This document shows positions 2,912 through 39,090 of a stretch of DNA of 49,965 nucleotides, piece after piece. How positions within the stretch are numbered: the stretch's first letter is position 1; each line of letters begins with the position of its first letter. The stretch is from the IMG/VR virus record IMGVR_UViG_3300009130_000043, positions 1-49,965 of that record. One strand, written 5' to 3'. Both the position numbers and the translations under genes were made by a program. This stretch comes from a virus. Below the pieces are notes generated by a model. It did no database searches, was not told the origin of the DNA, and worked only from the letters and a program-made list of their open reading frames with translations.

Positions 2912-3907
2912 ATGGCTACACTAGCAGAAATACGTGCAAAGTTGCTGGCACAAGATAAAAGCGCAACAGATTCGTCTAACTCAAATCGAGGCTCAGACGC
3001 AGTTTATCCCTTTTGGAATATCGATAACGACACTACAGCAGTGTTGAGATTTCTTCCGGATGCGGACAATTCTAATACATTCTTTTGGCGTGAACGTCAG
3101 GTTATTAAGATGCCTTTTCCAGGTGTCAAAGGTGGAGACACTAATAAACCTGTAACTGTTCAAGTTCCTTGCATTGAAATGTGGGGTGATACATGTCCAG
3201 TACATGCTGAAATTCGTCCTTGGTTCAAAGACCCAAGTATGGAAGACATTGGACGTAAGTACTGGAAAAAGCGTTCTTACATTTTTCAGGGATTTGTTAC
3301 ATCAGACCCTATGAATGAAGAAACTCCAGAGAACCCAATCCGACGTTTCATTATTGGTCCACAAATCTTTAAGTTGCTTAAAGCGGCATTGATGGACCCA
3401 GATATGGAAAATCTTCCAACTGACATTGAGCAAGGTACAGACTTCCGTTTGACTAAAACTCAAAAAGGTCAGTATGCAGATTACTCAACTTCAAACTGGG
3501 CTCGTAAAGAACGTAGCCTTGACGAGGCAGAGCGTTCAGCAATAGAAACTCATGGTCTATTTGACTTAAATGAGTTTATGCCTAAACGTCCTACTGAGGA
3601 AGAAATGGGTATTATCATGGAGATGTTTGAAGCATCAGTTGATGGTGAATTGTACGACCCACAACGTTGGGGTAAATTTTATAAGCCATACGGTCTGGAA
3701 ATTGCAGACACATCAGCATCAGCGGCACCAGTTGAAACATCAACTACGCCTAAGACTGAGGCTACTCCAAAGCCGAATACTCCGACTGCAACGGCTCCTG
3801 TACAGGAAAAAGTTGCTGAACCGGTAGCAGAAGAAACTGCACCAGCAGGTGCATCATCGGATGCGGCAGATATTTTGGCAATGATACGTTCCAGAAAATC
3901 TGACTAA
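2912..3907 (+). CDS. 32: Single-stranded DNA-binding protein gp32
   Basis: This protein coats and protects ssDNA during replication and recombination and organises UvsX, UvsY, helicase and polymerase. The N-terminal LAEIRAKLLAQ helix (cooperativity arm), the OB-fold core starting at YPFWNI, and the conserved segment CIEMWGDTCPVHAEI with zinc-ligand Cys/His residues are typical of the family. After about residue 260 comes a Pro/Ala/Thr/Glu-rich linker ending in the tip ADILAMIRSRKSD, a short hydrophobic-basic peptide in place of the strongly acidic T4 tail. The gene stands alone between its own promoter and a hairpin terminator. Confidence 0.93.
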   Translation: MATLAEIRAKLLAQDKSATDSSNSNRGSDAVYPFWNIDNDTTAVLRFLPDADNSNTFFWRERQVIKMPFPGVKGGDTNKPVTVQVPCIEMWGDTCPVHAEIRPWFKDPSMEDIGRKYWKKRSYIFQGFVTSDPMNEETPENPIRRFIIGPQIFKLLKAALMDPDMENLPTDIEQGTDFRLTKTQKGQYADYSTSNWARKERSLDEAERSAIETHGLFDLNEFMPKRPTEEEMGIIMEMFEASVDGELYDPQRWGKFYKPYGLEIADTSASAAPVETSTTPKTEATPKPNTPTATAPVQEKVAEPVAEETAPAGASSDAADILAMIRSRKSD

Positions 3908-3966: not shown

Positions 3967-5040
3967 ATGGCAAAGGCATTTGATGCAAGTAAATTTCGTA
4001 AGAGTATAACGAAATCTGTACCAGGTATGAGTGTAGGTTTTCGTGACCCTGATACATGGGTATCAACAGGTAACTACTGTCTAAACAAGTTGATTTCTAA
4101 TGATTTTAATAAAGGCATTCCGCTAGGCAAAGTAACAGTACTTGCAGGTGAGAGTGGCGCTGGTAAATCATATATTGCGGCAGGTAATATTGTTAAGAAC
4201 GCACAAGACCAAGGTATCTTTGTAGTTCTTATTGATAGTGAAAACGCACTAGATGAAAGTTGGTTACATGCACTTGATGTGAGTACTGACCCAGAAAAAT
4301 TACTAAAACTGAATGTAGCAATGATAGACGATGTTGCTAAAATTATTTCAGATTTTATGAAAGATTATCGTGCTGAATATGAAAATACAGACGATGAAAG
4401 CAGACCAAAAGTTCTATTTGTATTAGACAGTCTTGGTATGATGTTAACACCTACAGACGTTGACCAGTTCAACAAAGGTGATATGAAAGGTGACATGGGA
4501 CGCAAACCAAAGGCTCTAGCGGCTCTTGTGCGTAACTCAGTCAATATGTTCGGTGACTTTAATGTAGGACTAGTTGCTACAAATCACACATACGCATCAC
4601 AAGATATGTTTGACCCAGATGATAAAATTGCTGGCGGTCAAGGCTTTATCTATGCATCAAGTATTGTTATTGCAATGCGCAAACTTAAACTTAAAGTTGA
4701 TGCAGATGGTAATAAAACATCGCAAGTACATGGTATTCGTGCCGCTTGTAAGGTTATGAAAACACGCTATGCAAAACCTTTTGAAAGTGTGCAAGTAGAA
4801 ATTCCTTACGAAACTGGTATGAGCCCATATAGCGGACTAGTAGACTTTTTTGAAGCAAAAGGTATTCTTGTTAAGGTTGGAAACCGTTTACGTTATATGA
4901 CAAAATCAGGCGAAGAAATGATTGAATTCCGTAAGAATTGGACGGATGAAAAATTGGATGTTATCATTAAAGAGTGGAATGATGAAACTTTTGATGATGA
5001 AAAACACGAATTAGAACCACAAGAATTGGAGACCGAGTAA
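3967..5040 (+). CDS. uvsX: UvsX, RecA-like recombinase
   Basis: This ATP-dependent strand-exchange protein forms presynaptic filaments and drives recombination-dependent replication. The Walker A motif GESGAGKS sits at residues 61-68, a Walker B strand (VLFVLDSLGMM) near residue 150, and a RecA-type GGQGFIYASS segment near 220. At 357 residues it is close to the usual length of the family. The C-terminus is acidic. A good SD (ATGGAGTAGA) precedes the ATG. The QueD-like gene follows directly after its stop codon, suggesting cotranscription. Confidence 0.95.
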   Translation: MAKAFDASKFRKSITKSVPGMSVGFRDPDTWVSTGNYCLNKLISNDFNKGIPLGKVTVLAGESGAGKSYIAAGNIVKNAQDQGIFVVLIDSENALDESWLHALDVSTDPEKLLKLNVAMIDDVAKIISDFMKDYRAEYENTDDESRPKVLFVLDSLGMMLTPTDVDQFNKGDMKGDMGRKPKALAALVRNSVNMFGDFNVGLVATNHTYASQDMFDPDDKIAGGQGFIYASSIVIAMRKLKLKVDADGNKTSQVHGIRAACKVMKTRYAKPFESVQVEIPYETGMSPYSGLVDFFEAKGILVKVGNRLRYMTKSGEEMIEFRKNWTDEKLDVIIKEWNDETFDDEKHELEPQELETE

Positions 5041-5514
5041 ATGGCAAAATATATATCAACGAAAACATATCATCAACAATTTCCAGTCGCTTATAGACAA
5101 TGGCGTGCAGATAGTCATTGTAACATTTTACATGGATATGCTCTAAGTTTTCATTTTGAATTTGAGTCAGATACTTTGGATGCTCGTAATTGGGTAATGG
5201 ATTTCGGTGGACTACGTCCACTGAAACATCTCCTAGAAGATTGGTTTGACCATACGACACTTCTTGCATTAGACGACCCCAACTACAATGATATCAAAAA
5301 GTTAGGCGAACTAGGTCTTGCAAAGATTACAGAAGTAGAACGTACAGGCTGTGAAGGTATTGCTGATTTCTTATATGAGTACATCAACACTGTGTTCCTA
5401 AAAGATTATGGTGAGGCAGACCGTATTTGGTGTTGTAAAGTAGAAGTGCGTGAAACACAGAATAATATGGCAATGCGTGTTGGTCATAGAGAAGATGGTG
5501 ACTTTGATAGTTAA
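5041..5514 (+). CDS. queD: QueD/6-pyruvoyl-tetrahydropterin synthase-like protein with altered zinc site
   Basis: The T-fold QueD/PTPS family turns dihydroneopterin triphosphate into 6-carboxy- or 6-pyruvoyl-tetrahydropterin for queuosine or 7-deazaguanine synthesis. Family landmarks are in order: FPVAY (14-18), C27, HGY (31-33), MDFGGL (53-58), FDHTTLL (69-75), CEGIADFLYEYI (104-115) and VRE (substrate strand). Compared with E. coli QueD, C27 and H31 are kept, but the zinc ligands H16 and H33 align with Tyr18 and Tyr33. Either another residue such as H26 completes the site or the catalytic role has changed. No other queuosine-pathway gene is in the window. Confidence 0.8.
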   Translation: MAKYISTKTYHQQFPVAYRQWRADSHCNILHGYALSFHFEFESDTLDARNWVMDFGGLRPLKHLLEDWFDHTTLLALDDPNYNDIKKLGELGLAKITEVERTGCEGIADFLYEYINTVFLKDYGEADRIWCCKVEVRETQNNMAMRVGHREDGDFDS

Positions 5515-9174: not shown

Positions 9175-10291
9175 TGCAACTAACAAATCAGACCATACAA
9201 AAGCATTAGCATTCCTAGACCCTAATGGTGGTGTGGCAATTCAGCGGTATGATATGCTGAAATATAAACAGTTTGATAAACTAACTGATAAGCAGTTGGG
9301 ATTCTTTTGGAGACCAGAAGAAGTAGATGTTCTTAAAGACGCAAATGATTTTAAAAATCTAACAGACAATGAACGTCATATTTTTACTTCTAACCTAAAA
9401 CGTCAAATCTTACTTGACAGTGTTCAAGGGCGTGCTCCTAGTGAAGCATTTGGTCCACTCGTTTCTATTCCAGAACTAGAAGCATGGATTCAAACTTGGA
9501 CATTTAGTGAAACAATTCACTCACGTAGTTATACACATATTATTCGTAATGTGTATGCTAATCCAAGCATTGTATTTGATGAAATGATGGCTATCCCAGA
9601 AATATTAGAGTGTGCTGGAGATATCTCAGAATGTTATGATGAATTGATTGATTTGTCTTTGAAGTATCAGTTTCTAGGAGAAGGCACACATACAGTTAAT
9701 GGTAAGAAAGTATCGGTGAATTCATATGAAGTTAAAAAAGCATTATACAAAACTCTTATGAGTGTTAATATCCTTGAAGGTGTTCGTTTCTATGTAAGTT
9801 TTGCGTGTTCATGGGCATTCGCAGAACTTAAGAAAATGGAAGGTAATGCTAAAATTATTAAGTTGATTGCACGTGACGAAAATCTTCACTTAGCATTCAC
9901 CCAATCTTTACTTAAAGTTTTACCAAAAGATGACCCTGACTATATTCAGATTGCAAAAGAAACAGAGGAAGAATGCATTCAAATGTTTGTTGACGCAGTA
10001 GAACAAGAGAAGGCCTGGGCTGAATATCTATTTAAAGATGGTTCAATGATTGGTCTAAACACACAACTTCTAAATGATTATATTGAATGGATTTGTTGTA
10101 AGCGTATGACCGCAGTTGGACTAAAATGTCCATATTCAACGTCACAAGCAAACCCATTACCGTGGACACAGAAATGGATTGCTGGTGCAGAAGTACAAGT
10201 AGCCCCACAAGAAACTGAAATCACAAACTATATCATTGGTGGAGTTAAACAAGACGTATCAGAAGATACATTTGGAGGTCTGTCACTATAA
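9161..10291 (+). CDS. nrdB: Ribonucleoside-diphosphate reductase beta subunit, class Ia
   Basis: NrdB houses the di-iron centre and tyrosyl radical used by NrdA. Iron ligands and the radical Tyr are visible in WTFSETIHSRSYTHI, where Glu, His (+3) and Tyr (+4 from His) fit E115/H118/Y122 of E. coli R2. The second ligand set is in ARDENLHLAF (DExxH). The C-terminus ends with a Gly-rich EDTFGGLSL peptide, plausible as the NrdA-docking tail. The gene has 376 residues and its last base is the first base of nadE's ATG. Confidence 0.97.
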   Translation: MTVFDATNKSDHTKALAFLDPNGGVAIQRYDMLKYKQFDKLTDKQLGFFWRPEEVDVLKDANDFKNLTDNERHIFTSNLKRQILLDSVQGRAPSEAFGPLVSIPELEAWIQTWTFSETIHSRSYTHIIRNVYANPSIVFDEMMAIPEILECAGDISECYDELIDLSLKYQFLGEGTHTVNGKKVSVNSYEVKKALYKTLMSVNILEGVRFYVSFACSWAFAELKKMEGNAKIIKLIARDENLHLAFTQSLLKVLPKDDPDYIQIAKETEEECIQMFVDAVEQEKAWAEYLFKDGSMIGLNTQLLNDYIEWICCKRMTAVGLKCPYSTSQANPLPWTQKWIAGAEVQVAPQETEITNYIIGGVKQDVSEDTFGGLSL

Positions 10292-11037
10292 TGAGTGTAG
10301 ACAACATTACTAAATGGATTGGTGATTATGCTAATCAACATAATAAAAGTTTAGTAGTAGGTGTTTCTGGTGGTATTGATTCAGCAGTTGTCAGTACTTT
10401 ATGTGCTAGAACTGGATTAGATACAATCGTTGTGAGTATGCCAATTAACAAGGTGAATGACCTAAGTCTTCAACAGTGTTTTTGGTTGGAAGGTAAATAC
10501 TCAAACGTAACACACATAGACATCAATCTCACTAAAATATTTAATCAATTCAAAGACACATTCTCGGACCATACTAATGACCTAGCACTTGCGAATACGC
10601 AGGCTAGAATACGTATGACTTCTCTATATCAGATTGCACAAGTAAACAATGCTATTGTTGTAGGAACAGGTAACAAAGTAGAAGATTTTGGTGTTGGTTT
10701 TTTCACAAAGTATGGTGATGGTGGTGTAGACATTTCTCCGATTGCAGATTGCATGAAGTCAGAAGTATGGGATATGGGAAGAGAACTTGGGATATCTCAA
10801 TTTATTATAGATGCAGAACCTACAGATGGATTATGGGAAGATGGTAGAGTAGACACAGACCAGTTAGGGTTGACATATGAGCAATTAGAACGTGCAATGG
10901 TCTTGTCAGAAGATATGGTATTTTCGTTTATAGAATTAACAGATGAAGAAAAAGAACTAGTTAGTAGATATGATGAATTACACAATGCTAATTTGCATAA
11001 AATGAGACCAATTCCTATATGGAGGAAACATGCTTGA
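10291..11037 (+). CDS. nadE: NAD+ synthetase (ammonia-dependent type)
   Basis: NadE converts nicotinate adenine dinucleotide to NAD+ using ATP and ammonia. The adenylation P-loop SGGIDS lies at residues 26-31. The family signature GTGNKVEDFGVGFFTKYGDG and the following ISPIADCMKSEVW segment are intact. At 248 residues it is a stand-alone synthetase domain without a glutaminase domain. It is coupled to nrdB by a 1-nt overlap, so it is made together with the reductase. It may replenish host NAD for phage metabolism or counter NAD-depleting defence; both are inferences. Confidence 0.92.
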   Translation: MSVDNITKWIGDYANQHNKSLVVGVSGGIDSAVVSTLCARTGLDTIVVSMPINKVNDLSLQQCFWLEGKYSNVTHIDINLTKIFNQFKDTFSDHTNDLALANTQARIRMTSLYQIAQVNNAIVVGTGNKVEDFGVGFFTKYGDGGVDISPIADCMKSEVWDMGRELGISQFIIDAEPTDGLWEDGRVDTDQLGLTYEQLERAMVLSEDMVFSFIELTDEEKELVSRYDELHNANLHKMRPIPIWRKHA

Positions 11038-16131: not shown

Positions 16132-17577
16132 ATGTCAAACTGTACTATCACAATCAAAGACGAAGTGAATATTAAGTTAGATGGACTTGACCCTTCTACA
16201 CGAAGAAAATGTTCAGATAAACTTAAGTTCTTTTTGCCACATGCATATCATATGCCTGCATATAAACTTGGTCGTTGGGATGGAACTGTTCGATTTTGTG
16301 ATGTTGGTGGGAGAACTTATCTGAATATGCTAGATGATATCTTGCCATTAATTATTCAATCAGGTTATGAAATAACTATTAATGATATGCGTGAGGACGC
16401 CAATATGACGTTTACAGAGGTCCAAGAGGACTTTTGGGGAGATACATGCTGGCCAGATGGTCATCCTGCTGAAGGAGAACCTATTCTTTTACGTGATTAT
16501 CAGGTTGATGTAATTAATAAATTTATTAAGAATCCACAGTGTCTACAAGAAATTGCCACTGGTGCAGGCAAAACTATTATGACTGCAACATTAAGTAAAC
16601 TTGTAGAACCTTATGGTCGCTCTATTATTATTGTACCAAACAAGGATTTGGTAAGACAAACAGAAGCAGACTATATTAATTGTGGACTTGATGTCGGTGT
16701 TTACTTTGGTGATAAGAAAGACATTGGCAAAACTCATACTATATGTACATGGCAGAGTTTGAATTCACTTCTAAAAAAATCGAAAAAAGGCGAAGCAAAC
16801 ATTCAGGATTTTATTGAAGGCGTTGTATGTGTAATGGTAGATGAAGTTCACCAAGCAAAAGCAGATGTATTAAAAGAACTATTGACAAGTGTATTTGCAA
16901 ATGTTCCAGTGCGTTGGGGATTGACAGGTACAATTCCTAAGAGTGATTGGGAAAAAGCAAGTTTGCGTAGTTCGTTGGGTGAAGTTATTAATAGACTGGC
17001 AGCCAAAGAATTACAAGACCAAGGAGTACTTGCGAATTGTCATGTTAACATTGTTCAAACAAGCGAAACAGCAGATTATACTACATATCAAAGTGAATTA
17101 AAATTCTTACTAGAAGATAAGAATAGAATGGACTATGTATCAGAAATGATTAAAGAGATATCAAAAACAGGTAATACTTTGGTATTGACTAATCGTATTG
17201 CTAATGGAAAGTTATTACAAGATTTGATACCTGAAAGTGAGTTCGTTCAAGGTGCTATGAAGACCACAGATAGAAAAGAAACATATGATGAAATTAATGA
17301 AGCAACTAATTCAATTACTATCGCAACCTATGGTGTGGCTGCCGTTGGTATTAATATTCCACGTATATTTAATCTTGTACTACTTGAACCTGGGAAGTCG
17401 TTTGTTAGAGTTATCCAGTCCATAGGACGTGGTGTTCGTATTGCAAAAGACAAAGACTTTGTGCAGATTTGGGACGTTACGAGCCGTTGCAAGTTCTCTA
17501 AAAGACATCTAACTGAAAGAAAAAAATATTACAAGGATGCTCAGTATCCTTTTACAATAGATAAGGTAAAATACTAA
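16132..17577 (+). CDS. uvsW: UvsW-like DNA/RNA helicase
   Basis: UvsW unwinds R-loops and branched DNA and shifts T4 from origin to recombination-dependent replication. The N-terminal 115 residues match the UvsW accessory domain (KLKFFLPHAYHMPAYKLGRWDG). Motif Q/I lies in LRDYQVDVI and ATGAGKT, motif II is DEVHQAK, motif III is LTGTIP, and motif VI is QSIGRGVR. The length of 481 residues is close to T4 UvsW. It starts the next operon and abuts the following gene. Confidence 0.93.
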   Translation: MSNCTITIKDEVNIKLDGLDPSTRRKCSDKLKFFLPHAYHMPAYKLGRWDGTVRFCDVGGRTYLNMLDDILPLIIQSGYEITINDMREDANMTFTEVQEDFWGDTCWPDGHPAEGEPILLRDYQVDVINKFIKNPQCLQEIATGAGKTIMTATLSKLVEPYGRSIIIVPNKDLVRQTEADYINCGLDVGVYFGDKKDIGKTHTICTWQSLNSLLKKSKKGEANIQDFIEGVVCVMVDEVHQAKADVLKELLTSVFANVPVRWGLTGTIPKSDWEKASLRSSLGEVINRLAAKELQDQGVLANCHVNIVQTSETADYTTYQSELKFLLEDKNRMDYVSEMIKEISKTGNTLVLTNRIANGKLLQDLIPESEFVQGAMKTTDRKETYDEINEATNSITIATYGVAAVGINIPRIFNLVLLEPGKSFVRVIQSIGRGVRIAKDKDFVQIWDVTSRCKFSKRHLTERKKYYKDAQYPFTIDKVKY

Positions 17578-20267: not shown

Positions 20268-20709
20268 AGAACTAGATGAACTAATTAAGCAATACATTTA
20301 TGAAAGTCCTGATGGCGGTGAGACAGTCACCCGCAGAGAAATCGGAGATGAAACCCACTCAAAGGAATACATGAGTACAGATGATGTTTGGTTAGATACT
20401 GATGACACTTTTACTATTTCTGGACTTGACGCAGGTAGTGTATATAGTTCATCAATATCAACGATGTCCGGTACATCCATTACTTTAGACCCACACTACG
20501 GAGACAATGATATCAAAATAGATGTCAACGGTGAAATAAAAAGTGTTTCTGAATTGTTCAATACTGTCGATACTATTAAAAAACGTATGGCTATCTTGGA
20601 ACCAAAAAAAGAAATGCTAGAAAAGTATAAAGTGCTACAAGATTTATATGAACAGTACAAAGCCGCAGAGGCATTGTTAGACGGACCAGACCCGGAGGAC
20701 GAAGAATGA
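20257..20709 (+). CDS. Hypothetical protein with central repeat-like Ser/Thr region
   Basis: This 150-residue protein overlaps the upstream gene by 11 nt. The middle is Ser/Thr-rich (VYSSSISTMSGTSITLD). The C-terminal part, DIKIDVNGEIKSVSELF followed by a coiled coil (RMAILEPKKEMLEKYKVLQD), is a pattern I have seen in many phage proteins without assigned function. It overlaps the PRTase gene by 4 nt. Confidence 0.65.
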   Translation: MENEELDELIKQYIYESPDGGETVTRREIGDETHSKEYMSTDDVWLDTDDTFTISGLDAGSVYSSSISTMSGTSITLDPHYGDNDIKIDVNGEIKSVSELFNTVDTIKKRMAILEPKKEMLEKYKVLQDLYEQYKAAEALLDGPDPEDEE

Positions 20710-21275
20710 AAGAAAGAGAATATACATGGGAAGGCGTACAAGAGGCTATTAATTCAATCGCTATGCAAATGTTTAAAGACGAATGGAGACCAGATTACAT
20801 TGTTGGTATAACTCGTGGCGGATTAGTACCAGCAGTTCTCTTGTCGCATAAAACAGAAATACCAATGCAGACATTATGTGTTCAATTAAAGTCAGAAGGC
20901 CTTGAAGAAAATACAGAAAGTAATTGTTGGATGTCAGAAGATGCATTTGGGTATGAAGGATATAAGATACGCAATTATCAAGAGGATATTCAAGCAAGTG
21001 CAAACGCACCTGTAGAAGTAATTCCTTGGTCTGGAAAAAACATTTTAATCATCGATGATATTAATCGTGGTGGTGATGCATTGTCTTGGATTATTGAAGA
21101 CTGGCAATCAAGTTGTCTGCCACAACATGAACATTGGAAAAATGTTTGGCATGGTAATGTTCGTTTTGCATCTCTAGTTGATAACCCAAATTCGAAAGTT
21201 TCTATGGATTATTGTGCAGAAGAATTTGATATGGATGAAGAAGATATCTGGGTATCATTTCCTTGGGAGTCCTAA
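20706..21275 (+). CDS. Type I phosphoribosyltransferase
   Basis: The PRPP-binding signature ILIIDDINRGGDA is at residues 113-125, and the earlier YIVGITRGGLVPAVLLSH is typical of xanthine/hypoxanthine-guanine PRTases. The enzyme would join a base to PRPP, which the phage's own Prs could provide. An insert at residues 65-105 is longer than in E. coli Gpt. The substrate cannot be read; a purine base is most likely. It is coupled to the upstream gene by ATGA. Confidence 0.8.
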   Translation: MKEREYTWEGVQEAINSIAMQMFKDEWRPDYIVGITRGGLVPAVLLSHKTEIPMQTLCVQLKSEGLEENTESNCWMSEDAFGYEGYKIRNYQEDIQASANAPVEVIPWSGKNILIIDDINRGGDALSWIIEDWQSSCLPQHEHWKNVWHGNVRFASLVDNPNSKVSMDYCAEEFDMDEEDIWVSFPWES

Positions 21276-22070
21276 TTGAGTATTCTGGATATAAAACTAC
21301 CATATACAACACATTTATTAGAATATAATCCAGGGTTTTTTGGAGACTTTGTTTGCGGTTCAATCACATATAGCATTGATAATTACTTCGACCCAAACAA
21401 GAACCAAGAAAGATACTGGAGTCAATCAGATAACCACGTACCGAGAAATAGATACAATATGAGTTTGCGTGGTAATGGATATGAACACATACCGCTATAC
21501 AATGAGATAGTTCTTGCGCATGATGTATATATGAACTACTACGAATTAGTAGATGAAAATGATACTAATTATTATGGCGATACATTACTTTTCAATACAC
21601 ATCCACGATTATGTGAGAACATGGATGTTGAGAATTGTAGAACACTTACAAACTCATTTGATAAAACGAATACTAAGATACTAGTTATAGCAGATGATTT
21701 TGATACAGTATTTTACAGTGCATGTAATGTTACATTATCTTCGCATGTTGGTGGTAATATAGAAGAACTTGCAGTCGGCAGGCTACTACGTGAATTTAGA
21801 AACTCAGTGAAATACTTAAGATTTGCTAAAGAATTTGTACCAGAAAATAAAACACTTGACATTGGTGATATACATGAGTATAATGTAGATACCATAGCAT
21901 GTTATGGTTCTGTTAATAAAGATAAGTTTGACGAATACTACAGTAATTTCGTTAGTACTAAATTGAATATGTTGGACCATCTTGTTAAACGAGTTCGATT
22001 GAAGTTAAAACAAGAACCTAAAGTTATGTTAGAATTTTATAAAGAGTATGATAAATGGATGGCGAATTAA
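21276..22070 (+). CDS. Hypothetical protein (264 aa)
   Basis: It starts with TTG directly after the PRTase stop (TAATTG) with a usable SD (TTGGGAG). The N-terminal LEYNPGFFGDFVCGSI loosely resembles a phosphate-binding start of sulfotransferase-like proteins, but the motif is weak. The middle alternates strands and helices, and the C-terminus is helical and Lys-rich. It overlaps the next gene by 16 nt. I do not assign a function. Confidence 0.65.
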   Translation: MSILDIKLPYTTHLLEYNPGFFGDFVCGSITYSIDNYFDPNKNQERYWSQSDNHVPRNRYNMSLRGNGYEHIPLYNEIVLAHDVYMNYYELVDENDTNYYGDTLLFNTHPRLCENMDVENCRTLTNSFDKTNTKILVIADDFDTVFYSACNVTLSSHVGGNIEELAVGRLLREFRNSVKYLRFAKEFVPENKTLDIGDIHEYNVDTIACYGSVNKDKFDEYYSNFVSTKLNMLDHLVKRVRLKLKQEPKVMLEFYKEYDKWMAN

Positions 22071-22369
22071 TAAGACGTAACCCAAAACGAACTAAGGCGA
22101 AGTTAGAGCGTTTACGTAAATTGGCGGCTAAATCATCTAAGAGAAGATTTCATGCAGATTTCGATGATGCAGAATACACTAATTGGACATCGATATCACA
22201 TGAAAATATCGACTATGAAGTGATGCCTATTATACGAGGTGTCGGTCATTTGACCCAATTGATTGATTGGTGCAATGAAAACTGTAATGGACTTTGGGTT
22301 GCTAAGAGCGGACATTTGTATTTCGAAAAAGATGACGATGCGGCTCACTTTGCAATGGTGTGGAAATGA
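22055..22369 (+). CDS. Small hypothetical protein, paralogue of the gene at 18065
   Basis: 104 residues with a basic N-terminus (RRNPKRTKAKLERLRKLAAK) and a C-terminal module with Trp-Cys and LYFEKDDDAAHFAMVW, like that of the 67-residue protein encoded at 18065. Function is unknown. The stop overlaps the next ATG by 3 nt. Confidence 0.65.
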   Translation: MDGELIRRNPKRTKAKLERLRKLAAKSSKRRFHADFDDAEYTNWTSISHENIDYEVMPIIRGVGHLTQLIDWCNENCNGLWVAKSGHLYFEKDDDAAHFAMVWK

Positions 22370-22953
22370 TAGTAAAGACAGATATTGATATAGATGTACT
22401 AGACAGAGATAAAGTTTTAGAGAACTTTAAACATATACCTGCTAGTATTAAAAAGGATAAAGTGTATACAAAACATAATAGCGGTGTATACCTACAGCCA
22501 ATCCCATTCGACCCGATATCAGGCCTTGCAAGTATTGAATATAAAGAATCAGAAGATAGAGGTTACTTTAAATTAGATTTTCTAAATAATTCTCTATACG
22601 ATGGTGTGCGAGATGAAGAACATCTGGATGCACTTTGTACACAAGAACCAATATGGGACTTACTACAGCATGAGGAAGTTGTAAAAAACTTAGCACACGT
22701 TCACAACCATATTGATGTTCTTACTGTTCTGCAACCTGGTTCTATTGAGGAACTTGCGGAAGTTCTAGCCATTATTAGACCTGCAAAAAGATATTTACTC
22801 AATCAGAGTAAATCAGAAATCAAAAAATCTGTTTGGACCAAACCAGAAGATGGTTCTTACTATTTTAAAAAAGCACATGCTATCGCATATGCAGTAAGTA
22901 TTGTAGTCCAACTTAATCTATTTTGCGAACAAGTTGAACAGAGCGCCTCTTAA
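22366..22953 (+). CDS. Miniature DnaE-like protein (bacterial replicase palm/fingers core)
   Basis: This 195-residue protein shows, in order, five motifs of bacterial DNA polymerase III alpha. TDIDIDV (5-11) matches PDFDVDF, placing D8 and D10 on catalytic D401/D403. KHNSGVYLQP (36-45) matches KHAGGVVIAP. GYFKLDFLNN (66-75) matches GLVKFDFLGL, placing D71 on D555. LQPGSIEELAEVLAIIRP (122-139) matches LQPDCFEDMIALVALFRP. FKKAHAIAYAVS (167-178) matches FNKSHSAAYALV. The PHP domain, clamp-binding and OB parts of the roughly 1160-residue enzyme are absent. The ATG at 22366 (ATGA overlap) is preferred to the GTG at 22360. Activity is unproven. Confidence 0.75.
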   Translation: MIVKTDIDIDVLDRDKVLENFKHIPASIKKDKVYTKHNSGVYLQPIPFDPISGLASIEYKESEDRGYFKLDFLNNSLYDGVRDEEHLDALCTQEPIWDLLQHEEVVKNLAHVHNHIDVLTVLQPGSIEELAEVLAIIRPAKRYLLNQSKSEIKKSVWTKPEDGSYYFKKAHAIAYAVSIVVQLNLFCEQVEQSAS

Positions 22954-23308
22954 TTCTTTTTTGAATTATATTTGCTAGGCTTGTTTCAGGGCCCCATAAC
23001 ACATCAACATCTTTAGAATTCATATTTAGAATACAGGACTTATAATTTGATATCTGTGAACCTAAGAAAAGATTAATAGGAATTAATCTATTTGACTCCC
23101 ACCACCATTGTTCACCCAGTTCGATAAATTTCTTTCTCGCCTCAGGCGATTTTATAGCCTCGAAATCGTACATTGAGGTAATCACTGTATCACTGTTAAT
23201 TATAATTCCAAGATATTCTTTATATTCTTTTTTATTGCCGTATCTGACACTTGAAAAGAATGGATAGTTCTCTTGCAACCATTGTATTTTATTATCATCT
23301 ATCATCAA
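22913..23308 (-). CDS. Minus-strand conserved hypothetical protein
   Basis: A 131-residue protein convergent with, and overlapping by 41 nt, the mini-DnaE gene. It has WLQENYPFFSSVRYG, YLGIIINSDTVITSMYDF and ELGEQWWWESNRLIPINLF, which I recall from cyanophage proteins of unknown function, supporting a real gene. The C-terminus is basic (KRIKRRS). Start at either of two tandem ATGs. It diverges from the fibre-like gene across a 16-bp palindrome. Confidence 0.7.
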   Translation of the reverse strand: MMIDDNKIQWLQENYPFFSSVRYGNKKEYKEYLGIIINSDTVITSMYDFEAIKSPEARKKFIELGEQWWWESNRLIPINLFLGSQISNYKSCILNMNSKDVDVLWGPETSLANIIQKRIKRRSVQLVRKID

Positions 23309-24202: not shown

Positions 24203-25201
24203 ATGAACATTCAACAAGTTATATATTCAAGCATTAGAGGTCAATCCAGACAAAGTTCTGGAGGTTGGACTAGTTTTAATTGCCCGTGTTGTATAGACCA
24301 AGGTGAAGCAAGGTCAGATACAAGACAGCGTGGCGGATTAAAAAGTGACGGCGATAGTATTTCTTATCACTGTTTCAACTGTGGTTTTACTGCATCGCAT
24401 AGAAATGGTAGAACAGTGAACAAAAAGTTTGTCAAACTAATGCGTCTAATGAATGTCCCAGAGAGCGAGATTAAACGATTACAGATTGAGGCTATTAGAG
24501 AAAAAGAACTAGCCGAAGGCCCTTGGATATTCACATCCAAGACTTCGACAACTATCATTCCATCTTATAAAGATATGGAACTACCAGATAATGCTAGGTC
24601 AATAGATGAAATCTTAAATCAACCTAATCCTCCTGAGAATGCTATCTTGTCAGCAAAGTATTTGCTTGATAGGGGCATCTATGACTATGTTGATGCTTAT
24701 TGGAGTGATGCATTGGGCTTTAAGAACAGAGTGATATTTCCTTTTTGGCAGGGAGATAGAACAGTTGGTTATACAGGTAGAGATATAACTGGCAACTCAG
24801 AGTCTAAATACATGACAAAACAACCGAAAGATTTTCTGTACGGGGTAGACAAAATTAAAGAAGACAGAAAATTTTTAATTGTAGTCGAAGGAACTATTGA
24901 TGCGGCAGTATTAGATTGTGTAGCAATTCAAAGTAATGAGGCTTCTAATCGGCAAATTGATTATATTAATCAGTTTAAAGGGGAAGTGATTGTATGTCCA
25001 GATAGAGACCATGCTGGTAAGAAACTTATTAAACAAGCACAAGAAAATGGTTGGAGTGTTTCATTCCCTTTATGGGAAGATGATATAAAAGACGCCGCAG
25101 ACGCAGTACAGAAGTATGGAAAACTATATACTTTAAAGTCAATCATTGATGGACGTATAAGTAATAGTACAAAAATAAGTGTGAAAACACGTTTAATGTA
25201 A
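24203..25201 (+). CDS. 61: DNA primase, gp61-like
   Basis: Primase makes RNA primers for lagging-strand synthesis together with the gp41 helicase. The N-terminal zinc-binding domain has CPCC near residue 28 and CFNC near residue 57. The TOPRIM core is visible as LIVVEGTIDAA (conserved Glu), followed by VIVCPDRDHAGKK (DxD). The length of 332 residues is close to T4 gp61. No SD precedes the ATG, and the promoter abuts it, so the mRNA is probably leaderless. Confidence 0.93.
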   Translation: MNIQQVIYSSIRGQSRQSSGGWTSFNCPCCIDQGEARSDTRQRGGLKSDGDSISYHCFNCGFTASHRNGRTVNKKFVKLMRLMNVPESEIKRLQIEAIREKELAEGPWIFTSKTSTTIIPSYKDMELPDNARSIDEILNQPNPPENAILSAKYLLDRGIYDYVDAYWSDALGFKNRVIFPFWQGDRTVGYTGRDITGNSESKYMTKQPKDFLYGVDKIKEDRKFLIVVEGTIDAAVLDCVAIQSNEASNRQIDYINQFKGEVIVCPDRDHAGKKLIKQAQENGWSVSFPLWEDDIKDAADAVQKYGKLYTLKSIIDGRISNSTKISVKTRLM

Positions 25202-26099: not shown

Positions 26100-26117
26100 A
26101 ATGGAGACAATATGAAA
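26090..26117 (+). repeat. 28-bp direct repeat, copy B (leader of prs)
   Basis: Second copy of the repeat at 25910. It includes the stop codon of the 55-aa gene and the SD and start codon of prs. Confidence 0.9.
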
Positions 26118-27059
26118 ATCATCGCAGGAAACAGCAATCTTCCATTGGCAGGAGAAATTGCGGCTCATTGTTTTGCAACATTAGTACCGGCAGAAATCAA
26201 AACCTTTGCAGACGGTGAGAGTAGTGTAGAGTTTAATGAGAATATTAGAGGTGAAGACGTTTTTATAGTACAAAGTACAAGCACGCCAGTTAATGATAAT
26301 TTAATGGAACTATTGATTATGATTGATGCGGCGAAGCGTAGTAGTGCAAAACGAATTACAGCAGTTATACCATATTTTGGATATGCGAGGCAAGATAGAA
26401 AAAGTGCAAGTCGTACTCCAATCACTGCAAAACTAGTTGCTAATCTGTTGACTACATCGGGCGCAGATAGAGTTCTAACAATGGACTTACATGCAGGACA
26501 GATACAGGGTTTCTTTGATATTCCAGTTGACGATTTAACAAGTCGTATTACATTTGCAAAAGATATTAAACGAACACTAAAGACTTCTTCACAGAATTGT
26601 GTGTTTGTTTCTCCCGATGCAGGTGGTACAGTACGTGCTAGAAAATTTGCTGATATGTTTCACGGTGACATTGCAATCGTTGACAAGCGTAGGCCTAAGG
26701 CGGGCGTTAGTGAAGTGATGAATATTATAGGTGATGTTAAAGGACAACATGCTATCTTAGTTGATGATATTGTAGACAGTGGCGGAACATTATGTAATGC
26801 CGCTCAGGCAATTATGGATGCTGGCGCAGTAAGTGTAAGAGCATATATTACACACGGAGTATTAACTGGCAAAGCATGTCAGAAAGTTGAAGACAGTGTA
26901 TTAGAAGAACTTGTAATTACAGACAGTATTCAATTTCGCTGTCCTAAGGATTTAAAAAAGACAAGACAAGTTAGTGTATCCAAACTTTTTGGTGAAGCAA
27001 TTCGTAGAGTTAGTAATGAAGAAAGTGTATCTTCATTGTTCTTTAATCAAAAGGTGTAA
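26112..27059 (+). CDS. prs: Ribose-phosphate pyrophosphokinase (PRPP synthetase)
   Basis: The enzyme makes PRPP from ribose 5-phosphate and ATP for nucleotide and NAD synthesis. All signatures are intact: FADGES near residue 36, [11 protein letters not shown] (ATP-binding flexible loop) near 95, [18 protein letters not shown] near 125, and the PRPP-binding [13 protein letters not shown] near 216. The length of 315 residues equals cellular Prs, so this is not a degenerate copy. It is coexpressed with a 55-aa gene and a possible nuclease. A PRTase and nadE elsewhere in the window could use its product. Confidence 0.95.
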
Positions 27060-27665: not shown

Positions 27666-29093
27666 ATGTCAGACGTTAAAAACTACACAGCAGATTTACA
27701 AAACTTATTCGTACAGTTTATGATAACTGACCCTGAATTGTTCACAAGAGTTCGAGGGATTGTAGACCCTAGGTATTTCGATAGAGGTACTAGACAAGTC
27801 GTACAATTTCTTACAGAACACAGTGAAGAATATTCAACTATGCCTTCAACTGATATGATTAAGGCAGAAACAGGTCAAGAGTTAGTAAAACTGGACAGCA
27901 AAGATATAGCCCAACATAGCGAATGGTTTATAGATGAGTTTGAAACATTCTGTAGGCATAAAGCAATTGAACGAGCAATCGTAGATAGTGCTGACCTATT
28001 AGAGACTGGCAACTATGGTGAAGTAGAACAACGGATTAAAGAAGCAGTACAAACTGGACTAGCACGTTCATTAGGTACAGACTACTTTGAGGATCCACGT
28101 GCAGTGCTAAACAAGTTAAAAGATAATAACGGCCAACTATCGACAGGTTGGAAAGCATTGGATGATAAATTATATGGGGGCATTAATCGTGGAGAGATAA
28201 CGATTTTTGCGGGCGGGTCTGGCGCTGGTAAATCTCTATTCATGCAGAATATGTCACTAAACTGGGCTTCGTTGGGCTTGAATTGTGTTTACTTCACTTT
28301 GGAACTTTCAGAAGAACTTTCAAGTATGCGTATGTATGCTATGCAAACGGATAGAAGCACAAAACGAATATTTAAAGAACTAGATGATGTCGAACTTCAA
28401 GTCAAAACTATCAGCAAAAAGTCTGGTATGTTAAGAGTTAAGTATCTCCCTTCTGGTTCTACAGTTAATGATTTGCGTTCTTATATAAAAGAATTACAAA
28501 TACAGACTGGTGTGAAAGTTGACTGCATGTGTGTAGATTATCTGGATTTGATGTCACCTGCAGGTCAGAAAGTTTCGGCGAGTGATTTGTTTATTAAAGA
28601 CAAATATGTAACTGAGGAGTTAAGAAACTTTGCAATGGAATCAGAAACCGTTCTAGTTACTGCTTCTCAGTTAAATCGTTCTGCTGTAGAAGAAATCGAG
28701 TTTGACCATTCACATATTGCTGGTGGTATCTCTAAAATTCAAACTGCTGATAATGTTATTGGTATCTTTACGAGTAATCAGATGCGTGAACGTGGGCATT
28801 ATCAACTACAACTTCTTAAAACACGTTCTTCTAGTGGTGTTGGTTCTAAAGTCAATCTAGTATTTGATAGAGATAGTTTGCGTATTAGTGATGCAGACAG
28901 TGACGAAGAATTCAGCGGTGTTGGTGAATCCACAGATAGTCAAACATCTAAAGTGATGGCAAATCTAAAGAAGTCAACAACAGTAACAGCAAAAGATGAA
29001 GAAAATTCAGCACCAGTAGAGAAAACAGATGCGGCCAAAGCCCTTAGAGCAATGGCCCGAAGCAAGAAATCAAGCCCTTTTGACGCAAATTGA
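27666..29093 (+). CDS. 41: Replicative DNA helicase, gp41 (DnaB-like)
   Basis: This hexameric helicase unwinds the fork and partners with the gp61 primase. The N-terminal helical domain is followed by the RecA-like motor: Walker A GGSGAGKS near residue 185, a Walker B strand CMCVDYLDLM near 293, and the SQLNR sensor motif near 335. The length of 475 residues is normal for gp41. The C-terminal tail is a charged linker ending AAKALRAMARSKKSS, similar to the last residues of gp32. No SD is present. Confidence 0.94.
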   Translation: MSDVKNYTADLQNLFVQFMITDPELFTRVRGIVDPRYFDRGTRQVVQFLTEHSEEYSTMPSTDMIKAETGQELVKLDSKDIAQHSEWFIDEFETFCRHKAIERAIVDSADLLETGNYGEVEQRIKEAVQTGLARSLGTDYFEDPRAVLNKLKDNNGQLSTGWKALDDKLYGGINRGEITIFAGGSGAGKSLFMQNMSLNWASLGLNCVYFTLELSEELSSMRMYAMQTDRSTKRIFKELDDVELQVKTISKKSGMLRVKYLPSGSTVNDLRSYIKELQIQTGVKVDCMCVDYLDLMSPAGQKVSASDLFIKDKYVTEELRNFAMESETVLVTASQLNRSAVEEIEFDHSHIAGGISKIQTADNVIGIFTSNQMRERGHYQLQLLKTRSSSGVGSKVNLVFDRDSLRISDADSDEEFSGVGESTDSQTSKVMANLKKSTTVTAKDEENSAPVEKTDAAKALRAMARSKKSSPFDAN

Positions 29094-29362: not shown

Positions 29363-29581
29363 ATGGATTTTGAGCAACAGTTACATCAGTTAAAAGTACT
29401 CGCAGGTATATACAAACCCTACGATGTTTCTAAGCACCAAGAAAATATCTCCCATACTGGCACCGAAAAAGGTGAATATCAGCGTAAGCATAATATTCAA
29501 CCCGGTACAGATGAATGGTTTAGATTATGGTTCGCTAGACCTGGACTAACAGGCGAGCAACCACATGGGAAAAGAACATGA
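29363..29581 (+). CDS. Small hypothetical protein (72 aa)
   Basis: The sequence is mostly polar and probably flexible (NISHTGTEKGEYQRKHN), with a Trp-rich end (DEWFRLWFARPG). It overlaps the ligase-like gene by 4 nt (ATGA), so the two are coexpressed. Function is unknown. Confidence 0.6.
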   Translation: MDFEQQLHQLKVLAGIYKPYDVSKHQENISHTGTEKGEYQRKHNIQPGTDEWFRLWFARPGLTGEQPHGKRT

Positions 29582-30927
29582 AGATTAGTGAAATTATATT
29601 AAGTCAAGGATTAAATCGTAGATTTAGAGGTCCTCGTAAGCCTCGTTTAAAGCAAAAAGGATTTCATCAGCGCATGAAAGCCTTAAGTGATGCAAAGCAA
29701 TTAGAAGAAGATAAAAATACACACTTAGACCACGCAGAAGAATTAGTATTCAATCAAGGCACACAAGGTATTAAACGTGTTGTGACTACATTCTCGCATT
29801 TACTTGACGCAGTAGATGGCGCTCAATCAGGTGATTCTATCACTACGAAATGGGATGGTTCACCGGCAGTGTTTGCGGGTATCGACCCAGAAGATGGCCA
29901 GTTTTTTGTAGGAACTAAGGGCGTGTTTGCTAAAACTCCTAAATTAAATAAAACAAAAGACGATATTAAACGTAATCATCCAGATACTACTAAGAATGGT
30001 GAAGCAGTAAGCAAAGAAGGTTTACGTAATAAACTATATCGTTCTTTAGATGGGCTAAAAGACTTGAATATTCAAGGCGTATTGCAAGGTGATATGCTTT
30101 TTACAAAAGAAGATTTGAAAGAAGTTACGATTGACGGTGAAAAGATGTTAGCATTCAAGCCAAACACCATCACATATGTTGTCCCAGCAAACAGCAAGAC
30201 GGCAAAAGAAATGAGAGCCGCAGATATGGGTATCGTATTCCATACAAGTTATTCAGGCGATAGTATTGCTGATATGAAAGCATCTTTTGGTTTCGACTCA
30301 AGTTCACTTAGTCCCAGTAGTAAAGTTTGGTTTACAGATGCACGTATTAAAGATGTATCTGGCCAAGTACAGATGTCAGGCGATGAAGTAAAAGCAATAA
30401 AAACAGCAATAAAAGAATTGGCAGGCATGGCAGTTGATGAAAAAGCATTCAAAATTATTGATGCACAACTTCCATTGAACCTCAAAACAGAGTTAAAAGC
30501 ACACGCAAACAAACCAATAAGAAGCGGACAAGCATTTGAGCAAGATGCTAGTAAGTTTGCAAAAGATTTCTATACTAAAGTGCATGACACATATGAAAAA
30601 GCAATTGAAAAACTGAAAACTGGACGTGAAGGGCCTGCAGGACAAAGAAAAGCCGCACAACAGCAGGAAATGTTGCAATTCATAGAACAAAATGCACAAA
30701 GTATTGCGACAATGTATACTGCGTATCTAAAAGTAGAAGCAATCAAAATGATGTTTCAACGTAAGATGCGTGATATAAAGTCTATTGACAGTTTTATTGA
30801 GCAACCAGACGGTTCATTCAAAGTAACAGACCCAGAAGGTTTTGTTATTGTTGACCATATTGGTAGAGCAATGAAGATTGTAGATAGATTAGAGTTCTCA
30901 GCGGCGAACTTCGCTCCTAGAGATTAA
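29578..30927 (+). CDS. DUF6267-like protein with ligase/nucleotidyltransferase motifs
   Basis: I assign this 449-residue protein to the family I know as DUF6267. It has features of the covalent nucleotidyltransferase fold: KWDGSPAVFAG at residues 91-101 (KxDG, candidate adenylated Lys91), VGTKG at 111-115, QGDML at 170-174, and FKPN at 193-196. These could be ligase motifs I, III, IIIa and IV, though spacing differs from known ligases. The C-terminal half is helical. The N-terminus MKISEIIL matches other late proteins in the window and may be a head-targeting peptide. Ligase activity is inferred. Confidence 0.6.
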   Translation: MKISEIILSQGLNRRFRGPRKPRLKQKGFHQRMKALSDAKQLEEDKNTHLDHAEELVFNQGTQGIKRVVTTFSHLLDAVDGAQSGDSITTKWDGSPAVFAGIDPEDGQFFVGTKGVFAKTPKLNKTKDDIKRNHPDTTKNGEAVSKEGLRNKLYRSLDGLKDLNIQGVLQGDMLFTKEDLKEVTIDGEKMLAFKPNTITYVVPANSKTAKEMRAADMGIVFHTSYSGDSIADMKASFGFDSSSLSPSSKVWFTDARIKDVSGQVQMSGDEVKAIKTAIKELAGMAVDEKAFKIIDAQLPLNLKTELKAHANKPIRSGQAFEQDASKFAKDFYTKVHDTYEKAIEKLKTGREGPAGQRKAAQQQEMLQFIEQNAQSIATMYTAYLKVEAIKMMFQRKMRDIKSIDSFIEQPDGSFKVTDPEGFVIVDHIGRAMKIVDRLEFSAANFAPRD

Positions 30928-38400: not shown

Positions 38401-39090
38401 ATGCTTAATGAAAAATTTACCTATAACCCACTAGAACGAGTAAACATTAAAGGCAGTCGGCATTATCAAACGCCAGATGGCCAGCCTTTACCCAGTGTTA
38501 CTACTGTGCTTGATGCATTAAAAGATAAAACTGCTTTATTTGAATGGCGCAAACGTGTCGGTAATGAAGAAGCAGATAGAATTATGCGACTTGCTACTGG
38601 TATCGGAACACAAGTTCACTTACATTTAGAAAAATTTATATTAGAAGAAGATAGACCTTCTGGTACAAATCTCATCCATCAAATGGCAAAAGAATTATCA
38701 GATATTGTTATTGAACAAGGTTTGAGCAAAATTGATGAAGTGTGGGGCACAGAAGTCCCATTATATTATCCTGGTTTATATGCAGGCACAACAGATTGTG
38801 TTGGTGTGTACGAAGGAAAACCAGCAATCATCGATTTCAAAACAACTCGTAAACCAAAGAAACGAGAATGGATTGATGATTACTTCTTGCAAGGTTCGGC
38901 ATATGCCGAAGCACATAATCAAATCTATGGAACTAATATAAAAACAATTGTTATTATGATGATTGGCTGGGATGCAGAAGCAGATAATATGGGGAATTAC
39001 CAAGAATTTGTTGTCGAAAGTGATGAATATGAACGATATGCGTTACAATGGGCTGGCAAGGTTCAGGAGTATTTTGATAAATACATGTAA
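38401..39090 (+). CDS. Cas4/RecB-family PD-(D/E)XK exonuclease
   Basis: The nuclease core is clear: GTTDCVGVYEGKPAIIDFKTT carries the motif II Asp and the DxK, followed by LQGSAYAEA (QxxxY). GTQVHLHLEKF near residue 67 gives the motif I His. This fits RecB-like or Cas4-like DNA exonucleases used in recombination or host DNA degradation. The length of 229 residues is typical of stand-alone members. It has no SD, and the promoter abuts the ATG. The surrounding genes are virion-type, so it is an early gene placed inside the late region. Confidence 0.85.
   Translation: MLNEKFTYNPLERVNIKGSRHYQTPDGQPLPSVTTVLDALKDKTALFEWRKRVGNEEADRIMRLATGIGTQVHLHLEKFILEEDRPSGTNLIHQMAKELSDIVIEQGLSKIDEVWGTEVPLYYPGLYAGTTDCVGVYEGKPAIIDFKTTRKPKKREWIDDYFLQGSAYAEAHNQIYGTNIKTIVIMMIGWDAEADNMGNYQEFVVESDEYERYALQWAGKVQEYFDKYM

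Follow-up and report, generated by a model that had tools for sequence, protein, structure and literature searches.

The description of a split DNA polymerase III (Pol III) alpha subunit in phages is reportedly due to Iyer et al. It dates from 2021 and assigns a 'minimal, split' Pol III alpha to group 2.2 jumbo phages, where it was proposed to be a relic predating the single large DnaE (PMC7824862; Viruses 2021;13:63). In the accessible parts of the individual genome papers, a truncated 172-residue Pol III alpha and a DnaQ-domain (epsilon-like) protein are reported for phage CBB (PMC5259590), gp316 and an epsilon subunit are noted for Atu_ph07 (PMC6102473), and only a B-type polymerase is named for RaK2 and MIJ3 (PMC3622015, PMC6892783); nor was the split Pol III alpha seen in the accessible part of a survey that reviewed bacterial polymerases in 2026 (PMC12926913). 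No experimental test of the split polymerase was found in searches of the open-access literature, which contained no preprints and few subscription articles. Here we analyse a viral DNA of 49,965 bases (positions 1 to 49,965 of IMG/VR record IMGVR_UViG_3300009130_000043, called the window), which encodes a 195-residue protein corresponding to the C-terminal half of such a split core (the C half). Very probably, a minimal C-family polymerase is assembled in trans from two pieces, this protein being the C-terminal one, and is accessory to a B-family replicase.

Like the split Pol III alpha of group 2.2 jumbo phages, the window protein is a standalone, predicted metal- and template-binding part of the core, with nothing else of DnaE; it differs in that it is encoded on a 49,965-base record without its N-terminal half (the N half). 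With bacterial DnaE and PolC it shares the core palm and fingers motifs, the catalytic Asp residues and the fold, but it lacks the PHP, OB, clamp- and tau-binding parts and much of the thumb, and the phage palm is divided between two polypeptides. Because PMC7824862 already describes a split minimal Pol III alpha, the window protein is not a novel type; it is a further case of an already published polymerase. An earlier note, made from the letters of the window, was not aware of a description of such a protein; besides the 2021 description, many public records label one or both halves DNA polymerase. The additions made here to the published description are the structural tiling of the two halves, the counts of their occurrence and two 141-kb phages that carry both.

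The C-terminal half of the Pol III alpha core

The C-half gene is an open reading frame (ORF) with an ATG at 22366 and a stop codon ending at 22953, and its ATG shares 4 bases with the stop codon of the ORF before it (22055-22369). The following features are referred to below:

22366-22953, plus strand: C-terminal half of the minimal core of a split DNA polymerase III alpha, PHROG 11778, 195 residues
22387-22395, plus strand: codons of the DxD motif (D8-D10), matching the first and second metal-binding Asp of DnaE
22576-22578, plus strand: D71 codon in the KxDFL motif, counterpart of the third metal-binding Asp
22864-22947, plus strand: FKKAHAIAYA motif with the helix after it, corresponding to the fingers FNKSHxxxY helix

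Single-sequence searches with the C half gave no Pfam, NCBIfam or PDB-sequence match. The protein matched PHROG 11778 ('DNA polymerase') with E=2e-71 over residues 4-189 of 195; it is a member of this family itself, and no difference from it was seen. A tblastn search returned 63 phage records, and identity to isolate proteins was 41-53% in 59 of the 60 rows listed and 35% in the other. The named relatives are mostly jumbo phages (121Q, PBECO4, RaK2, GAP32, CBB, PA5oct, Atu_ph07, Phosso, SCTP-2 and others). A scan of IMG/VR found at least 598 related stretches, and 22 loci (L001-L022) encode proteins 67-82% identical to the C half. Another scan, of bacterial and archaeal genomes, yielded 8 loci, each titled metagenome-assembled genome; these are probably contigs of phages that were binned together with other organisms.

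A profile of 39 C-half sequences had three matches in PDB up to E 10: the two at the top were Pol III alpha chains (0.074 and 0.18), and the third was an unrelated hydroxylase (E 0.79). Four motifs (DIDID, KMDFL, RP and FNKSH) occurred in the right order in this alignment: the D8-D10 DxD was aligned to DIDID of the solved Pol III alpha chains, the D71 motif to KMDFL and FKKAHAIAYA to FNKSHAAGYGM. The five C-family motifs that the earlier note had read in succession are all present as quoted in the 22366-22953 ORF.

The AlphaFold2 model of the C half, built from the same 39 sequences, had a predicted local distance difference test score (pLDDT) of 90.6 and a predicted template modelling (TM) score of 0.73, and placed a helix at residues 169-194. 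With this model, the top 13 of 109 Foldseek matches were C-family polymerases (best E 1.6e-3, TM about 0.4). The best VIA-align match was 3e0d (Z 9.7, root-mean-square deviation 4.0, 191 residues); all 15 rows with Z of at least 5 were C-family, and the following non-C-family row had Z 3.3. On E. coli DnaE (2hnh), residues 1-192 fitted positions 397-781 with Z 8.8, the 191 C-half residues being spread over a DnaE stretch of about 385. The whole protein was aligned inside this range, which leaves the PHP, OB, clamp- and tau-binding domains outside and bears out the view that these parts, with much of the thumb and fingers, are missing. A chance match of motifs is ruled out by the PHROG 11778 match, the phage records found by tblastn and the VIA alignments. 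In conclusion, the C half is a compact relative of C-family polymerases, as first supposed, with a palm/fingers fold according to its model.

Two other features of the C half were considered and set aside. A QLNLF sequence close to the C-terminus is similar to clamp-binding peptides; it was not counted, because it lies within the long C-terminal helix and is variable between relatives. Stop codons that might be recoded in two relatives (codon 187 in L028 and codon 189 in L066) are at the very C-terminus and look ordinary.

The separate N-terminal half and its co-occurrence with the C half

The C-half protein starts at DxDxD, without the preceding palm segment GxGRGS, the palm loop that DnaE and PolC carry in the same polypeptide. 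In each of the 4 annotated relatives, a search with Pfam PF07733 hit a single small protein, encoded apart from the C half. The pairs (C half, then N half) are gp488 and gp449 in PBECO4, gp074 and gp316 in Atu_ph07, XYS97594 and XYS97297 in Phosso, and WPK39726 and WPK39796 in Ettore. These four N halves have 169-177 residues, contain GxGRGS and terminate 1-2 residues past EFL; two of them match PF07733 over model positions 16-95 and 21-95 of 260. Their terminal EFL aligns to DnaE ERFL392, and TDIDID of the C half aligns to MPDIDID.

A model of an N half from one relative (L102, not the window's phage) had a pLDDT of 91.8. The top 14 of its 55 Foldseek matches were C-family (best E 4.7e-3). 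Its VIA list, which covers residues 79-176 only, was C-family in all 15 rows listed; the best match was 5lew 306-411 (Z 11.7), and the same residues were placed on E. coli DnaE 278-391 (2hnh) with Z 9.3. About 78 residues at the start of the N half were assigned to no part of DnaE. As the N half falls on DnaE 278-391 and the C half on 397-781, the two tile the core without overlap, the split lying just before DxDxD. The 'miniature DnaE' of the earlier note was therefore right as to kinship with DnaE and wrong as to completeness, since the window protein covers no more than the C-terminal half of the core, and in relatives a second protein carries the GxGRGS half. For the same reason it is most improbable that the 195-residue protein is a minimal polymerase on its own: all three metal-binding Asp residues are present, which would suit such an enzyme, but it is without the GxGRGS segment that relatives conserve as a separate protein.

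The two halves co-occur. N-half matches were found in 62 of the 63 phage records with a C half (pooled from two listings, several being RefSeq copies of GenBank records), the sole exception being PP728206 (109,507 bases). The N-half tblastn listings (154 and 82 records) include phages with other DnaE/PolC-like genes, and there may be N-only phages among them. For IMG/VR, all 23 distinct contigs above 100 kb among 160 loci (80 C-half and 80 N-half) were analysed. Both halves were present in 11 of the 12 distinct contigs of at least 200 kb; the N half was found in 5/5 contigs taken for their C half, and the C half in 7/8 contigs taken for their N half. In one of them, the close relative G001, which is 343 kb long and whose C half shares 79% identity with that of the window, the two halves lie about 84 kb apart. 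In 14 picked isolate records the two genes are separated by 11 to 224 kb. In two 141-kb Alishewanella phages, Slicko01 (OQ508956.1, L195) and Slickus01 (OQ508957.1), the distance is about 11 kb, and both halves are annotated only as hypothetical proteins; the N half of Slicko01 was also found by hmmsearch (E=2e-16), and this phage has a match to a B-family polymerase as well. Adjacent or fused halves were looked for and none was found: no locus held both among the 160 IMG/VR loci, each taken with flanks of at most 5 kb, and of the stretches examined only a 32-kb stretch of Slicko01 contained the two.

Residue conservation was determined on 93 distinct C halves (102 rows before removal of duplicates) and 88 distinct N halves (94 rows before removal). 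D6, D8, D10, D71, H37, R138, F167, K168, H171 and N184 are each present in 93/93 C halves, so the three catalytic Asp residues are kept, as the earlier note had it; G, G, R, G and S of GxGRGS are present in 88/88 N halves. The ratio of nonsynonymous to synonymous substitution rates (dN/dS) had a median of 0.11 and a maximum of 0.24 for the C half (190 pairs of 612 with usable dS), and a median of 0.16 and a maximum of 0.27 for the N half (18 usable pairs of 48); these pairs are non-independent, and those including the window are mostly near synonymous saturation. Both halves are under purifying selection.

These results bear on another proposal of the earlier note, that the protein is a decoy for host Pol III, that is, a non-catalytic decoy or regulator mimicking the host alpha subunit. 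The resemblance to host DnaE and a size too small for a complete polymerase would agree with such a function. It was rejected as very unlikely on account of the metal ligands, invariant in 93/93 sequences, and of the partner half with invariant GRGS, which co-occurs in 62/63 records; in addition, the clamp- and tau-binding parts of DnaE, outside the aligned range, are not among what the protein resembles.

Genomic neighbourhood of the two halves

In the window, the C-half gene is part of a replication block and follows, in this order, genes for terminase, a structural protein, SSB, UvsX, ribonucleotide reductase, an AAA ATPase and a DNA helicase; it is followed by a convergent gene of unknown function, and then by genes for a structural protein, primase and DnaB. 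The features concerned are:

2912-3907, plus strand: SSB (phrog_1192, E=1e-64), start of the replication block
3967-5040, plus strand: UvsX-like recombinase (phrog_97, E=6e-63)
16132-17577, plus strand: DNA helicase (phrog_16 'DNA helicase', E=2e-70), which by position and size we read as UvsW-like
22913-23308, minus strand: convergent gene (phrog_11637, unknown function), overlapping the 3' end of the C half
24203-25201, plus strand: DNA primase (phrog_47, E=5e-38)
27666-29093, plus strand: DnaB-like replicative helicase (phrog_19, E=3e-71)

An opposite-strand gene is annotated at the same place in Phosso, PBECO4, Ettore, Atu_ph07 and Slicko01 (position, not sequence, was compared); because the position is the same in five isolate genomes, the convergent gene may be functionally tied to the C half. 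In Phosso, PBECO4, Ettore and Atu_ph07 the C half is followed by this reverse-strand gene, a structural or hypothetical protein, and primase and/or helicase, under annotated names that differ. Around the N half, a clamp-loader gene is found two or three genes further on in PBECO4, Ettore and Atu_ph07, and GroES is annotated one gene beyond it in Phosso; in G001, the ORF reached two ORFs after the N half reads, in our opinion, as GroES.

In PBECO4 an RNase_T-type exonuclease is located between UvsY and a DEAD/DEAH helicase. There was no RNase_T/DnaQ match among the approximately 40 window ORFs scanned, which are not all its ORFs; the window has an exonuclease of another type at 38401-39090. It also carries a nucleotide- and NAD-related set: a QueD-like protein (5041-5511), NAD synthetase (10291-11034), a phosphoribosyltransferase-domain protein (20706-21272) and ribose-phosphate pyrophosphokinase (26112-27056). 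Shortly past DnaB is a 449-residue DUF6267 protein of unknown function (29578-30924, Pfam E=1e-95).

Proposed assembly and role of the two halves

We propose that the C half would supply the metal- and template-binding part of the enzyme, through D8, D10, D71 and the FKKAHA helix. The N half, of about 170-185 residues and presumably encoded elsewhere in the genome, outside the fragment, would give the GxGRGS palm segment, and joining of the two in trans would rebuild the palm. The assembled pair would then be an accessory polymerase that operates alongside the B-family replicase; its tasks might be the filling of gaps, repair or synthesis on one strand. A B-family polymerase was present in 17/17 relatives tested (4/4 isolates and 13/13 others), in line with the remark of the earlier note that T4-like phages usually have this enzyme; the relatives have it in addition to the C-family half. 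No B-family polymerase is encoded on the 49,965-base window, and no A-family polymerase match exceeded the cut-off in the 4 isolates.

Rather than copying a template, the assembled halves might be a nucleotidyltransferase that tails ends, synthesizes primers or transfers nucleotides onto a small substrate. This is rather unlikely. It would account for the absence of much of the DNA-holding part of DnaE (191 C-half residues vs the stretch of about 385), and the B-family replicase in all 17 relatives is compatible with it. It does not agree with the FKKAHA helix and the RP motif being conserved as strictly as the catalytic Asp residues, nor with the grouping of the C-half gene with primase, DnaB, UvsX and SSB.

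Several observations count against a two-piece accessory polymerase. Complex formation and activity of the pair are inferred. As much of the thumb is missing, it is doubtful that DNA would be firmly bound. The N half was not found in the window by the PF07733 search, a profile search or a six-frame hmmsearch, and in none of the loci examined did the two halves lie near each other. Only 1/11 of the 100-200 kb contigs hold both (N half in 0/5 C-half contigs, C half in 1/6 N-half contigs); single halves on contigs of this size fit genes lying far apart on fragments, which is not itself support for pairing. One contig of 359 kb, G015 (L120), has an N half and no C half detectable in a repeated search up to E 10 or with a broader profile. 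Finally, the Foldseek E-values of both halves are modest (none below 0.001, with TM about 0.4), and the profile matches to PDB sequences are weak (0.074 and 0.03). Contig G015 also carries a B-family polymerase.

With the two-piece polymerase as the preferred explanation, a further suggestion is more tentative: the pair may be an active enzyme of about 370 residues, the smallest of the C family, with a dedicated job beside the B-family replicase, and it may be widespread in environmental phages, including some that are not jumbo phages. This goes beyond what we regard as probable. To our knowledge, no smaller C-family DNA polymerase has been reported. It is also conceivable that the pair is a remnant of an earlier stage, when DnaE was not yet a single large protein, as put forward in PMC7824862. 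If the pair is active, a polymerase active site would be made up by two proteins from separate genes that have few of the parts by which DNA is usually held, which would show how little of Pol III catalysis needs, and the question would arise of why strong selection keeps a split polymerase in phages that have a B-family replicase.
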